A stretch of 64,000 nucleotides of DNA from Micromonospora luteifusca (GTDB lineage Bacteria > Actinomycetota > Actinomycetes > Mycobacteriales > Micromonosporaceae): assembly GCF_016907275.1 (NCBI RefSeq), contig NZ_JAFBBP010000001.1, positions 1,240,001-1,304,000 on the forward strand, in the 5' to 3' direction. Position 1 is the stretch's first letter. Each line of letters begins with the position of its first letter. The position numbers and the translations under genes were made by a program. The notes under the pieces are model-generated. The model saw only the letters and a list, made by a program, of their open reading frames with translations, had not been told where the DNA came from and did not search any database. Positions 2,814-46,425 of the stretch are shown here, in pieces.

Positions 2814-3722
2814 TCAGCCGCCCATCGACCGGGCGGCGAGCAGCGCGGCCGGAGTCGCCCCCGCGAACTGGTGAAAGTCCCGGATCAGGTGGGACTGGTC
2901 GTAGTAACCGCATCGCGCCGCCACCGCGGCCCAGTCGACGGCCCGTGTCACGCCGGGCGATCCCGCACCAGCCGCGGACTCGGTCGGCGGCCCGGCACCC
3001 GTCCCGGCCACCGCATTCGGCCCGATGGTCGCGCCCACGTCGGTCAGTGCCGCGTACGCCTGCTGGAAGCGCAGCAACCGGGCGACCATCTTGGGCGGCA
3101 GCCCGACGTCCTGCCGGAACCGGGACGCGAGGTGCCGCCGGCTCCAGCCCAACTCGTGGGCGAGCACACCCACACCCCCTTGCCCACCACAGGCGACGAG
3201 CCATCGCCACGCCCAGTCCAGCCGGGCGTCCACCGGCGGGGACGCCGCAAGCCGGCCGGCGAGCACCCGGTCGAGCAGGGCGAACCGGTCCGGCCAGCCC
3301 GCCGTCTCGGCGAGCCGGTCGCGCAGCCGATCCAACCAATGGCCCGGGAGCTGCCCGACGCCCACGGCCCGGTTGGTCAGCTCGCTCAGCGGCAGACCGA
3401 GGAGCCGGCGGGCGGTCAGTGGGGCGAGCAGCAACTCGACGCCCTCCCCCACACCCACCGTGCGTGTGGTGCACCAGCCGTCGAAGGTGCCAGCCACGAA
3501 CGAGTCGACCTTCGTGGCCCCGCGCTCTGCGTTGCGCGGGTCGGTCACGTCCAGCGGAGCACCCCAACCAAGGATCAGCACCACGAACACGCCCGCCGAC
3601 TCCCGCCGGACCAGCGGCACGTCGGCCCGTTCCCGGTAGCCGACGTACCGATCGACGAACGGACGCAGCCGGACGTCGGGCAGCCCAAGAACCATCTCCC
3701 CGACCGGTGCCACCGCCGTCAC
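2814..3722 (-). CDS. AraC family regulator with an insertion between its two HTH units
   Basis: 302-residue regulator, GTG start at 3722. The N-terminal part is an uncharacterised sensor domain. The C-terminal DNA-binding region has the first HTH at about 187-232 (VGVLAHELGWSRRHLASRF) and the second at about 263-300 (AAVAARCGYYDQSHLIRDF). Between them there is a Gly/Ala/Pro-rich stretch of roughly 30 residues (TGAGPPTESAAGAGSPG) where other members have a few. The linker normally forms a rigid helix, so this is odd. It is followed by the VOC gene, its likely target, with 74 bases between them. The effector is unknown. Confidence 0.85.
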   Translation of the reverse strand: MTAVAPVGEMVLGLPDVRLRPFVDRYVGYRERADVPLVRRESAGVFVVLILGWGAPLDVTDPRNAERGATKVDSFVAGTFDGWCTTRTVGVGEGVELLLAPLTARRLLGLPLSELTNRAVGVGQLPGHWLDRLRDRLAETAGWPDRFALLDRVLAGRLAASPPVDARLDWAWRWLVACGGQGGVGVLAHELGWSRRHLASRFRQDVGLPPKMVARLLRFQQAYAALTDVGATIGPNAVAGTGAGPPTESAAGAGSPGVTRAVDWAAVAARCGYYDQSHLIRDFHQFAGATPAALLAARSMGG

Positions 3723-3798
3723 CCTCGCCCGCCCTTCGCGCGCCCCGGCCGGCCGCGCCCAAGCGGAGCGCTCGTCGTGGCCAGCCGGGTGGTGGCCG

Positions 3799-23951: not shown

Positions 23952-24575
23952 TCAGACGGTCGGCTGCTGCGACACCTCGCCGCCAGCGGTCTCCGCGAGG
24001 ATCCGCTCGGCGACCTCTTTCATGGTCATCCGGTGATCCATTGCCGTGCGCTGGATCCACTTGAACGCCTGTGGCTCGGTCATCCCGTACGTGGTCATCA
24101 GCGCACCCTTGGCGCGCTCCACGGCCTTGCGGATCTCCAGGCGGTCGGTCAGGCTCGCGACCTCCGCCTCCAGGGCCGCGACCTCGGAGTAACGCGACAG
24201 CGCGATCTCCACCGCCGGGACCAGGTCGCTCTTCTGGAAGGGCTTCACGAGGTACGCCATCGCGCCCGCAGCCCGCGCCCGCTCCACCAGGTCACGCTGG
24301 CTGAACGCGGTCAGGATGATCACCGGAGCGATCCGGGCGCCGGCGATGCGCTCGGCGGCGGCCAGCCCATCCATGATCGGCATCTTGATGTCGAGGATGA
24401 CCAGATCGGGCTTCAACTCCTCGGCGAGGCGGACGGCGGTCTCACCGTCACCGGCTTCCCCCACCACCTCGTAACCCTCTTCGACCAGCATCTCGGCGAG
24501 GTCCAGCCGGATCAGCGCCTCGTCCTCGGCGATCAGTACGCGCCTACGCTCGGCATCCGTCGGCATCTCAGCCAC
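23952..24575 (-). CDS. pdtaR: ANTAR-domain response regulator, PdtaR-like
   Basis: 207 residues from GTG 24575. The receiver domain (about 11-125) has VLIAEDEALIRLDLAEML, phospho-acceptor Asp in LVILDIKMPIMDG, the Thr of ILTAFSQRDLVERA and the Lys of AYLVKPF. A coiled coil (LEAEVASLTDRLE) leads to a C-terminal ANTAR RNA-binding domain (ERAKGALMTTYGMTEPQAF, then KWIQRTAMDHRMTMKEVAER). It closely resembles mycobacterial PdtaR, which is activated by the kinase PdtaS and acts as an antiterminator on mRNAs with paired hairpins. No kinase gene is next to it. A perfect inverted repeat lies 27 bases upstream. Confidence 0.93.
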   Translation of the reverse strand: MAEMPTDAERRRVLIAEDEALIRLDLAEMLVEEGYEVVGEAGDGETAVRLAEELKPDLVILDIKMPIMDGLAAAERIAGARIAPVIILTAFSQRDLVERARAAGAMAYLVKPFQKSDLVPAVEIALSRYSEVAALEAEVASLTDRLEIRKAVERAKGALMTTYGMTEPQAFKWIQRTAMDHRMTMKEVAERILAETAGGEVSQQPTV

Positions 24576-24601
24576 CAGCCCTACCCCCACCAGTCGAAAC
24601 C

Positions 24602-24625
24602 TGACACCCGCCCAGCCGGGTGTCA
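24602..24625. promoter_or_regulatory. Inverted repeat between pdtaR and the tRNA-like gene
   Basis: TGACACCCG (24602-24610) and CGGGTGTCA (24617-24625) are perfect 9-base complements with a 6-base spacer. It lies in the divergent region, within the probable pdtaR leader. It could be an operator or, since PdtaR-type regulators bind hairpin RNA, a target for feedback; neither is shown. Confidence 0.4.
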
Positions 24626-24680
24626 CCGCCCTCAGCGTAGTAGGTAACCTATGGGAGGCCGCCAGAGCATTCGGCCAAGC

Positions 24681-24757
24681 GTCCCCGTATTCCAACCGGC
24701 AGAGAAGCGGAGCTCAAACCTCCGACAGTGTGGGTTCGAATCCCACCGGGGGCACCA
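24681..24757 (+). tRNA. tRNA-like gene, anticodon CAA (Leu by codon), short variable loop
   Basis: 77 bases fold as a cloverleaf: acceptor GTCCCCG/CGGGGGC (one U-G pair), a weak 3-bp D stem TTC/GAA with loop holding GG, anticodon stem CGGAG/CTCCG with loop CTCAAAC (anticodon CAA), variable loop ACAGT, T arm GTGGG-TTCGAAT-CCCAC, discriminator A and an encoded CCA. The CAA anticodon reads the Leu codon UUG, yet bacterial tRNA-Leu should have a long variable arm of ten or more bases; this one has five. C13-A22 mismatched and C38 are also unusual. It may be a noncanonical tRNA, a decayed tRNA-Leu, or a tRNA with another identity. The CCA end is 32 bases before the HTH-LAGLIDADG gene on the same strand. 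Confidence 0.7.
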
Positions 24758-24789
24758 AAAGTGTCGTACGGCTGTTCCAAAATCGTCAT

Positions 24790-25539
24790 GTGCATCCACC
24801 TGAACTACGCATTCGTGCACGGCAGCAGCACCTCGCCGGCAGCACGGTCGCCGAGGTTGCCAGACGTCTGAGACTTCCGTACCCGACGGTCAGGGGCTGG
24901 TGCAAGCACCAGGTCGAGCCGAGAAGGTCCAGCAGCGAGCTTCGGTGCTTTCGCTGCCGGCCCGAGGTCAGGAATCAGACAGATCCGTCTGCATACCTCT
25001 ACCTGCTCGGTCTCTACCTGGGCGACGGGCATCTCGTCACCTCCGCACGGGTACCGGTGCTGCGCATCGCTTGCAGCAGTAGTTGGCCGGGCTTGATCGA
25101 GGCGTGCGACGCCAGCATGCGGCAGGTGCTCGCGGCGAAGGTCCAGCGCGTCCATCAGCCTGGTTGCGTCAGCGTGCAGAGCTCCGGCAAGCACTGGCCA
25201 TGCCTGCTTCCCCAGCATGGTCCGGGCAAGAAACACGAACGGCCAATCGTCCTCGCCGATTGGCAACGGGACATCGTCGCGACGCATCCGGGTGACTTCC
25301 TGCGTGGGCTGTTCCACTCCGACGGCTGTCGGTTCGCCAACCGGGTGACCGTGCGCGGCAAGGCGTACGTCTACCCGCGCTACATGTTCGTCAACGAGTC
25401 GGCGGACATCATGGCGCTCTGCCAGTGGAGCCTCGACCTGCTCGGCATCGCCTGGCGGATGAACCGCCGCAACTCGCTGTCGGTGGCGCGACGCAACGCG
25501 GTCGCCACGCTGGACCGGCATGTCGGCCCCAAATCCTGA
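24790..25539 (+). CDS. Free-standing HTH-LAGLIDADG homing-endonuclease-like protein
   Basis: 249 residues from GTG 24790; the same frame stays open back into the tRNA but has no better start. Residues about 17-36 form a helix-turn-helix (STVAEVARRLRLPYPTVRGW). A CFRC pair follows at 53-56. Two LAGLIDADG motifs are visible: YLLGLYLGDGHL (about 71-82) and DFLRGLFHSDGCR (about 168-180), each keeping the acidic metal-binding Asp. The family cuts or once cut specific DNA targets, usually within introns or inteins; here no intron or intein boundary is present and the HTH is at the N-terminus. Such proteins may have become regulators. Its tight placement behind the tRNA-like gene suggests co-transcription or a shared mobile origin. 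Confidence 0.8.
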   Translation: MHPPELRIRARQQHLAGSTVAEVARRLRLPYPTVRGWCKHQVEPRRSSSELRCFRCRPEVRNQTDPSAYLYLLGLYLGDGHLVTSARVPVLRIACSSSWPGLIEACDASMRQVLAAKVQRVHQPGCVSVQSSGKHWPCLLPQHGPGKKHERPIVLADWQRDIVATHPGDFLRGLFHSDGCRFANRVTVRGKAYVYPRYMFVNESADIMALCQWSLDLLGIAWRMNRRNSLSVARRNAVATLDRHVGPKS

Positions 25540-44850: not shown

Positions 44851-44958
44851 CCGCCCGATCGCCGCCTGGCCATCCGATCGCCCGGACCCGACAGCAGAGC
44901 CCGTCACCGACGGCGGGCGACAAGCCTCCTTCCGTACGTAATCAGGGAGTTTTCTCTC

Positions 44959-46425
44959 GTGGCAGTGACCTCCCGACGCAGCTCGCGTCGGCTCACCTTC
45001 ACCGTGCTCGCGGCCGGTGCCGGGTTCTTCGCGATGCTCCAGTCGCTGATCACCCCGGTGCTACCGACCATCCAGCAGGACCTGCACACCTCCCAGAACA
45101 CCGTGACCTGGGTCCTGACCGCCTATCTGCTCTCCGCGTCGATCTTCACGCCGATCCTCGGTCGGGTCGGCGACATGGTGGGCAAGGAGCGGATGCTGGT
45201 CGTCTCGCTCGCCGCGCTCGCCCTCGGCTGCCTGCTGGCCGCCATCGCGCCGAACATCGGTGTCCTCATCATCGCCCGGGTCGTGCAGGGCATCGGCGGG
45301 GCGGTCTTCCCGCTGTCGTTCGGCATCATCCGCGACGAGTTCCCGGCCGCGCGGGTCTCCTCCGCCGTCGCCGCCATCTCGGCGATCGTCGCCGTCGGCG
45401 GTGGCCTGGGCATCGTGCTGGCCGGCCCGATCGTCAGCACGCTGGACTACCGCTGGCTGTTCTGGATCCCGATGGTCGTGGTCGGGCTGACCGCCGTGGC
45501 CGCCCACCTGTTCGTCCCCGAATCCCCGGTCCGCACCCCCGGTCGCATCGACTGGCGGGCCACCCTGCTGCTCTCCGGCTGGCTGGTCGCGTTGCTGCTG
45601 CCGATCAGCCAGGGCGTGGCGTGGGGCTGGACCAGCCCCCGGGTGCTCGGCCTGCTGGCGCTCGCCGTGGTGCTGCTGGTCGGCTGGCTGGTCGCCGAGG
45701 TGCGCTCGCCCAACCCGCTGATCGACATGCGGATGATGCGCCTGCCCGGCGTCTGGACCACCAACCTGGTCGCCCTGCTCTACGGCGCGTCGATGTTCTC
45801 CATGTACGCGTTCCTCCCCCAGTTCCTGCAGACCCCGACCGCCGCCGGCTACGGCTTCGGCGCCAGCATCAGCCAGGCCGGTCTGCTCATGCTGCCGATG
45901 GTGAGCGCGATGTTCGTCGCCGGCATCGTCGCCGGCCGACTCCAGGCCGTTTTCAGCGCCAAGGCGCAGCTCGCCACCGGCGCCGCGTTCAACGTGGCCG
46001 CCTCCGCGATGCTCGCCACCGCGCATGACACCCGCTGGGAGGTCGCCGTCGCCGGTGGCCTGGTCGGCCTCGGTATCGGCCTGGCCTTCGCGTCGATGGC
46101 CAACCTGATCGTCGCCAGTGTGCCCGCCAGCCAGACCGGCGTGGCGACCGGCATGAACGCCAACATCCGCACCATCGGAGGCGCGATCGGCGCCGCCGTG
46201 GTCAGCGGCGTGATCACCGCGAACCCGCAGGCCAACGGCCTGCCCCGGGAAGCCGGCTTCACGACGGGGTTTCTCGTCCTCACGGCGATCGCCCTGGCCG
46301 CCGCGCTCGCGGCCCTGGCCGTCCCGTCCGCCCGGCGGGCGTCGTCCGGTCGCCGGCCGTCCACCGCGACGATCGTCGAGTCGGAGCTAGCCGGCGAGTT
46401 CGCCACCATGCCAGCGACCCGCTGA
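44959..46425 (+). CDS. MFS drug exporter, DHA2 (14-TMS) family
   Basis: 488 residues, GTG start at 44959. About 14 hydrophobic segments; DHA2 features include the N-terminal FAMLQSLITPVLPTIQQDL, the motif A loop LGRVGDMVGKERMLV, motif B-like IIARVVQGIGGAVFPLSFG and motif C GGGLGIVLAGPIV. It is predicted to export drugs or endogenous metabolites by proton antiport. Divergent from its TetR regulator and followed by a strong hairpin. Confidence 0.92.
   Translation: MAVTSRRSSRRLTFTVLAAGAGFFAMLQSLITPVLPTIQQDLHTSQNTVTWVLTAYLLSASIFTPILGRVGDMVGKERMLVVSLAALALGCLLAAIAPNIGVLIIARVVQGIGGAVFPLSFGIIRDEFPAARVSSAVAAISAIVAVGGGLGIVLAGPIVSTLDYRWLFWIPMVVVGLTAVAAHLFVPESPVRTPGRIDWRATLLLSGWLVALLLPISQGVAWGWTSPRVLGLLALAVVLLVGWLVAEVRSPNPLIDMRMMRLPGVWTTNLVALLYGASMFSMYAFLPQFLQTPTAAGYGFGASISQAGLLMLPMVSAMFVAGIVAGRLQAVFSAKAQLATGAAFNVAASAMLATAHDTRWEVAVAGGLVGLGIGLAFASMANLIVASVPASQTGVATGMNANIRTIGGAIGAAVVSGVITANPQANGLPREAGFTTGFLVLTAIALAAALAALAVPSARRASSGRRPSTATIVESELAGEFATMPATR

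Follow-up and report, generated by a model that had tools for sequence, protein, structure and literature searches.

The window analysed here, 64,000 nucleotides at positions 1,240,001–1,304,000 of the single-contig, 7.16 Mb genome of Micromonospora luteifusca, contains a putative free-standing homing endonuclease gene located 32 bp behind a leucine transfer RNA (tRNA) gene, tRNA-Leu(CAA). The encoded protein combines an N-terminal helix-turn-helix (HTH) with two LAGLIDADG motifs. An ANTAR response regulator gene, which we take to be PdtaR-like, lies on the other side of the tRNA on the opposite strand. The locus is composed of the following features:

23952–24566, minus strand: ANTAR response regulator (Pfam Response_reg, expectation value (E) 6e-28, and ANTAR, E 3e-21; run on 23952–24572)
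24593–24680, plus strand: tRNA leader, forming the left portion of the segment that can be exchanged (profiles and two alignments between close relatives, transferred to the window by eye)
24681–24757, plus strand: tRNA-Leu(CAA), class I (short variable loop), CCA encoded (ARAGORN; Rfam RF00005; genome tRNA census)
24715–24717, plus strand: anticodon CAA (ARAGORN position 35)
24762–24779, plus strand: spacer element TGTCrTAC....GTTC (consensus of 57 class I and 17 class II spacers)
24790–25539, plus strand: putative HTH-LAGLIDADG free-standing homing endonuclease gene (GTG start at 24790, stop ending at 25539, 249 residues)
24799–24906, plus strand: HTH domain, residues 4–39 (AlphaFold helices 4–15, 20–27, and 31–39; Pfam below cut-off)
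25000–25035, plus strand: LAGLIDADG motif 1, YLLGLYLGDGHL, with presumed metal-binding D79 (conservation of D79)
25297–25332, plus strand: LAGLIDADG motif 2, FLRGLFHSDGCR, with presumed metal-binding D178 (conservation of D178)

The open frame, its 32-bp spacer (24758–24789), and the acidic residues in both motifs agree with the initial annotation of this DNA, which had been made from the letters alone. The two motifs, GLYLGDG and GLFHSDG, each possess a terminal acidic residue, as in double-motif LAGLIDADG monomers, and D79 and D178 are aspartate in 31/31 chosen diverse homologues and in all 74 full-length Micromonospora copies. The AlphaFold model (predicted local distance difference test 90.1) comprises three helices at residues 4–39 and two LAGLIDADG half-domains, each with the α-β-β-α-β-β arrangement of the superfamily, and its structural matches are I-Tsp061I, I-DmoI, and inteins (Foldseek, VIA-align). 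Pfam matches to three HTH families (HTH_28, HTH_23, and HTH_Tnp_ISL3; E 2e-4 to 2e-3) and to LAGLIDADG_3 (E 4e-4) all fall under the curated cut-offs; among the 31 homologues, HTH_23 is matched by 19 and LAGLIDADG_3 by 25. The HTH is real but weak in Pfam. The nearest database protein, from Micromonospora arborensis, shares 98% identity with the window protein, and the median ratio of nonsynonymous to synonymous divergence (dN/dS) of the gene is 0.23 (2,687 pairs of 74 copies). As the initial annotation held, neither intron nor intein surrounds the gene: it forms its own open frame 3′ of a complete tRNA, and no intron is seen because tRNA is the only Rfam family reaching threshold in the window, the intron families remaining below it. 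Elsewhere in the same genome, a second, weak match to the protein occurs in a long open frame (C1:84046–84318; E 0.003, 28% over 89 residues), with a further weak match at E 0.35.

The neighbouring gene, initially described as tRNA-like and unusual, is a genuine tRNA and the genome's sole tRNA-Leu(CAA). Its Rfam score of 48.1 bits (cut-off 29) is the lowest of 50 tRNA matches in the genome; the other 49 (ARAGORN) include tRNA-Leu genes for CAG, GAG, TAA, and TAG, 84–86 bases long, and no second CAA. The tRNA-like gene is therefore the genome's one CAA tRNA in a class I form (class defined by length, class I being up to 79 bases), with 77 bases, a 3-bp D stem, and an unusual short variable loop. 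Across 103 distinct class I sequences, pairing reaches 99.6% in the acceptor stem, 99.4% in the D stem, 95.7% in the anticodon stem, and 100% in the T stem, compared with 87.9%, 72.2%, 55.7%, and 94.6% when the arms are dealt at random. A decaying relic was considered and rejected, since compensating changes preserve the stems. The class I form is also common without the nuclease: in 46 queried genomes (43 without a nuclease match), judged by matched strings, the CAA match was of class I in 20 and of class II in 15, and 11 had neither.

Relatives of the nuclease are tightly associated with tRNA-Leu genes. We read the tRNAs in 58 loci, 30 from Micromonospora, chosen as the top scorers among 125 carriers, and 28 sampled across the phylum, leaving out one fragment (L091). 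The Micromonospora loci have tRNA-Leu(CAA) upstream on the same strand, 29–35 bp away, in 30/30 cases. In the phylum loci, a tRNA-Leu (CAA, TAG, CAG, or TAA) is within about 155 bp of the nuclease match or overlaps it in 26/28, with all four arrangements of side and strand represented; the remaining two are located 146 and 182 bp from a tRNA-Trp(CCA). Because a random site would fall within 300 bp of a tRNA-Leu with a probability of only ~5e-4 to 9e-4, the association seen in 26 of these 28 loci outside the genus is not chance. In a set of 80 named loci, selected from at least 529 relatives, tRNA-Leu(CAA) is within 204 bp in 79, and the lone miss begins 83 bp from a contig end. Neither of the two refuting outcomes named in the initial annotation, homologues scattered without a tRNA or motifs lost in most of them, was observed. 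A CAA tRNA just upstream, about which the initial annotation asked, is the rule in Micromonospora, Streptomyces, and their allies; elsewhere the tRNA may be another leucine isoacceptor, or Trp in two of the 28 loci, and may stand on either strand and to either side. Searching the phylum with the window protein gave 30/396, a lower bound, since a query from Streptomyces recovered more within that genus (109/150). By eye, no cut-site motif common to all neighbouring tRNAs was seen. Two Streptomyces genomes carry tandem nuclease matches behind one tRNA (G591:C50:6967–8383 and G579:C1:2578970–2580472), and in three carriers of a same-order genus, presumably mycobacteria, the nuclease is beside tRNA-Leu(TAG).

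The association extends to viral contigs, where the relatives of the window protein sit in tRNA arrays. A tRNA-Leu is present inside the nuclease gene or within about 250 bp of it in 11/15 contigs; in three that are nearly identical to one another, tRNA-Met lies at 34 bp and tRNA-Leu at 825 bp, and a weak match with no tRNA nearby (L415; 27%, 115 residues) was counted as a miss. Neighbouring genes include a tail-tube protein ~500 bp away in one contig (phrog_4542, E 4e-11) and a phage-type homing endonuclease in another.

The nuclease gene is absent from the same site in some relatives. The ANTAR regulator stands beside tRNA-Leu(CAA) in 97/97 Micromonospora loci, comprising 74 with a full nuclease gene, 12 with a broken one, and 11 without the gene, and in 89/89 Streptomyces loci with a CAA tRNA. 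In 20 genomes of other genera or orders that have no nuclease match, regulator and tRNA-Leu(CAA) still occur together in 18, one with the regulator on the tRNA's other side, which indicates that the locus is old and that the nuclease was added to it. Within Micromonospora, 26 of 151 genomes have no match, a category that takes in decayed copies such as L144 with a remnant start seen by eye, and the match is broken (by reading) in 20 of the 125 carriers. The empty sites that the initial annotation proposed to look for exist, and the gene resembles a free-standing homing element in lying outside an intron or intein and in being missing at the same site in relatives. The homing cycle consists of invasion, decay, and loss.

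The tRNA at this locus is itself variable, falling into nine types by its first bases and into class I or class II. In 74 Micromonospora rows, 41 tRNA-type changes are required on the tree of the flanking regulator (shuffled mean 46.3, minimum 38) and 27 on the nuclease tree (shuffled mean 46.2, minimum 41). Class changes in the same rows number 16 on the flank tree (shuffled 15.5, minimum 12) versus nine on the nuclease tree (15.6, minimum 13), and in 64 Streptomyces rows 18 (shuffled 15.7, minimum 12) versus six (15.6, minimum 11). Two nuclease clades with one tRNA type each, chosen from the nuclease tree with one member of another type excluded, are rejected as clades by the flank data (approximately unbiased test, p-AU 0.0081 and 0.0095). 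Type in Micromonospora, and class in both genera, follow the nuclease tree and not the flank tree, so the tRNA travels with the nuclease and not with the species. In a nuclease-free clade of six relatives with 5.2–5.9 Mb genomes, one identical tRNA persists over 0.321 of the 3.575 flank-tree length units, giving zero switches versus 4.9 expected at the rate elsewhere (P 0.007, for one clade and an assumed Poisson rate).

Comparison of 15 chosen locus pairs reveals the extent of the exchanged segment. The 14 pairs with differing tRNA types share 94–100% identity in the regulator gene, and over the 100 bp from the tRNA start identity is 43–80% in 13 of them, the remaining pair, set against a nuclease-less locus, being unaligned there. 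Where a class I locus is compared with a class II locus and both have a nuclease match (eight pairs), identity over this segment is 43–49%. In most different-type pairs identity rises again along the nuclease gene, and the sole same-type pair has no dip (98%). The left edge is a sharp identity break ~30 bp outside the regulator start codon (two alignments). Along the nuclease, tRNA-type linkage requires 29 changes for residues 1–85, 32 for residues 86–165, and 43 for residues 166–249 (shuffled means ~46), the last value not under the shuffled minimum of 42. Median synonymous divergence (dS) along the gene is 0.94, 0.88, 0.80, and 0.49, with 0.32 for the regulator gene. As far as sequence comparison can tell, the linkage of tRNA type and class to the nuclease, together with this divergence gradient, points to co-conversion, and the same pattern would be expected if a donor cassette served to repair a break at or near the tRNA.

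In our view, the window gene likely encodes a free-standing homing endonuclease that acts on tRNA-Leu loci, with co-conversion of the tRNA. The suggestion in the initial annotation of a homing unit at tRNA loci is well supported by comparison, through the phylum and viral adjacency, the empty sites, the broken copies, and the joint replacement of the tRNA and the 5′ portion of the nuclease gene. In the proposed mechanism, the N-terminal HTH would guide the LAGLIDADG endonuclease to the region of a tRNA-Leu gene; in actinomycetes the target would mostly be the tRNA-Leu(CAA) locus next to the ANTAR regulator gene. Where a carrier chromosome meets a different allele, the endonuclease would cut that allele at or near the tRNA, and repair from the carrier would copy the nuclease gene, the linked tRNA, and the leader as one cassette. 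Through such repair, the resident tRNA could give way to one of a different type, phage-like class I forms among them. The cassette may later decay, with the nuclease lost and the tRNA staying behind. We infer DNA cleavage by the window protein, its site and direction, and breaks as the cause of the replacements. A spacer element common to the class I and class II cassettes of Micromonospora (TGTCrTAC....GTTC) is possibly a promoter or binding site. The co-transcription of tRNA and nuclease that the initial annotation read from the placement of the gene is not general: named Streptomyces matches start 85–166 bp behind the tRNA, with hairpin-like sequence after the tRNA (by eye).

The class I tRNAs resemble phage tRNA-Leu and may have come from phages. 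Over its full length of 77 bases, the window tRNA is 78% identical to the tRNA-Leu of Corynebacterium phage StAB (E 7e-7), and tRNA-Leu genes from mycobacteriophages, among other sources, match it as well. The nuclease frame of viral contig L399 overlaps at its last bases with a class I tRNA-Leu(CAA), which starts 8 bp after the match. Two further viral nuclease genes enclose a complete class I tRNA: L398 (gene 2929–3717) holds tRNA-Leu(UAA) at 3076–3150 (60.5 bits), and L406 (gene 2932–3735) holds tRNA-Leu(CAA) at 3127–3200 (51.3 bits). Both tRNAs occupy the same position in the linker between HTH and LAGLIDADG domains and are read in the same frame, and the tRNA-like linker peptide VSQLAEE..S.. 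is present in 8/346 homologous proteins (judged from the protein only). Class I CAA tRNAs are widespread without the nuclease; therefore, their spread need not always be via the nuclease. Near the StAB genome end (44884–45684), a class I tRNA-Leu(CAA) is followed 46 bp on by an HNH endonuclease gene, the same tRNA-Leu/nuclease pairing with another nuclease family.

The tRNA inside the nuclease gene in these two contigs bears on a natural cleave-and-rescue (poison-antidote) system, in which the nuclease would destroy tRNA-Leu genes that are foreign or sensitive. The tRNA linked to it, with its different spelling, would be an uncuttable rescue copy, a working part rather than a passenger. Several observations fit: the linked tRNA is the genome's only CAA tRNA, the tRNA types are too different for one recognition sequence to fit easily, the stems change with compensation (anticodon stem 95.7% paired versus 55.7% at random), and type linkage is strongest to the HTH-bearing third of the nuclease. 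However, tRNA-Leu(CAA) is probably dispensable because tRNA-Leu(UAA) can read UUG by wobble, so cutting may not poison, and nuclease-less genomes keep tRNAs of the same types. We regard this explanation as unlikely. A wider and more speculative proposal, which we hold as possible though on balance doubtful, is a natural cleave-and-rescue drive that is based on a tRNA gene and common to actinomycetes and phages. Any given nuclease would cut all tRNA-Leu alleles but its own, and host CAA genes would have been replaced across genera by phage-derived, differently shaped tRNAs; in some phages target, antidote, and nuclease would be fused with the tRNA as an in-frame linker, and class I tRNA-Leu(CAA) would be the scar of past drives.

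A domesticated regulator, also raised in the initial annotation, would retain the fold while the protein now binds the tRNA gene or the tRNA to regulate or process it, in the manner of WhiA. WhiA (DUF199) is a LAGLIDADG relative with regulatory function. It is a conserved regulator and lacks catalytic residues (PMC4255298), whereas the window nuclease keeps both catalytic acids in the 31 and 74 sequences above, and its gene undergoes loss, breakage, and exchange. This explanation is disfavoured by how often the gene decays or disappears (the broken matches in 20/125 carriers and the 26/151 genomes with none); in addition, relatives occur next to various tRNA-Leu genes, to either side and in either orientation, as well as in viral tRNA arrays, and exchange tracks the nuclease, not the species. 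We rate it as quite improbable.

Least probable, and in our judgement very unlikely, is that phages or integrases recombine the tRNA-Leu locus for other reasons and the nuclease merely resides there: tRNA genes commonly serve as integration sites, but integrases spare one half of the tRNA whereas here the whole tRNA and leader are exchanged, the two window neighbours tested encode a response regulator and an NAD(P)-binding protein and not integrases, the nuclease-free clade has no switches, and the nuclease family is tied to tRNA-Leu across unrelated sites. In favour of such a hot spot, mycobacteriophages are reported to integrate into a tRNA-Leu (PMC3706429).

Several points weigh against the homing interpretation. 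Proximity to any recombination hot spot would equally give linkage between the tRNA and the 5′ part of the nuclease. Best matches to tRNA-Leu(TAG) (own genome C1:4385342–4385425) vary as well, ranging from 100% to ~80% in 101 Micromonospora genomes and low in some close relatives, each best match being taken irrespective of its isoacceptor; this variation would also suit a hot spot. For fine tRNA types in Streptomyces, the two trees are not separated (42 changes on the flank tree versus 40 on the nuclease tree). Sister pairs, leaving out carrier/non-carrier pairs (1 different/4 same), number 24 different/21 same for carriers versus 1/6 for non-carriers, in the same direction and not significant (Fisher P 0.10). 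A class I tRNA as a marker of carriers was rejected: it is common in nuclease-less genera and therefore no mark of present carriage. Finally, no relative of the window protein was found in named phage or plasmid collections, its viral relatives coming from IMG/VR contigs only, and two of these viral-contig relatives had no match when queried against named phages.

The homing endonuclease proposed here differs from described systems in fold, setting, or cargo. I-DmoI, I-Tsp061I, and the intein LAGLIDADG enzymes are encoded in introns or inteins (by entry titles), whereas the window gene has neither and its tRNA travels along; to our knowledge, these enzymes possess no N-terminal HTH of the kind in the window protein. 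SegB of phage T4 is a free-standing homing endonuclease in tRNA arrays that is reported to cut the tRNA region, with high-frequency inheritance (PMC2988022, PMC13096335). The window family shares the free-standing state and, in its viral relatives, the tRNA-array setting. SegB is phage-borne with a GIY-YIG domain, whereas the window family has the LAGLIDADG fold with an HTH, is mainly chromosomal, and is bound to tRNA-Leu at one conserved locus where the tRNA switches type; by analogy, the window nuclease can be viewed as working like SegB without being a SegB. PMC6582537 describes horizontally acquired tRNA clusters in a Mycobacterium mucogenicum clade, with HNH endonucleases and short-variable-loop tRNA-Leu, ascribed to phages. 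Acquired tRNAs, a homing-type nuclease, and a short-variable-loop tRNA-Leu are common to both cases; the clusters combine an HNH nuclease with an extra tRNA array, whereas the window case replaces the sole CAA tRNA at a conserved locus. In the open-licence literature, judged by titles and abstract starts, no paper on the HTH-LAGLIDADG tRNA-Leu family or on tRNA type switching was apparent.

The usual view of tRNA genes is that they serve housekeeping, change slowly, and are inherited vertically. In the present case, a tRNA-Leu(CAA), the sole one of its kind in the genome, appears to be exchanged as selfish-nuclease cargo between species of two large antibiotic-producing genera, in forms as different as class I and class II. 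If the homing interpretation is true, the system would be a bacterial-chromosome counterpart of SegB, would hint at the origin of short-armed tRNA-Leu, and would reveal a large nuclease family with targets guessable from the neighbouring gene. It would also represent a naturally occurring gene drive that acts on a tRNA and that crosses between Streptomyces strains could test directly.

Among minor observations, no tandem repeats were found, and a consensus promoter scan yielded no site, including no sigma-70 consensus promoter for the tRNA leader. Two terminator-like sites, both on the minus strand, are located inside the nuclease gene.
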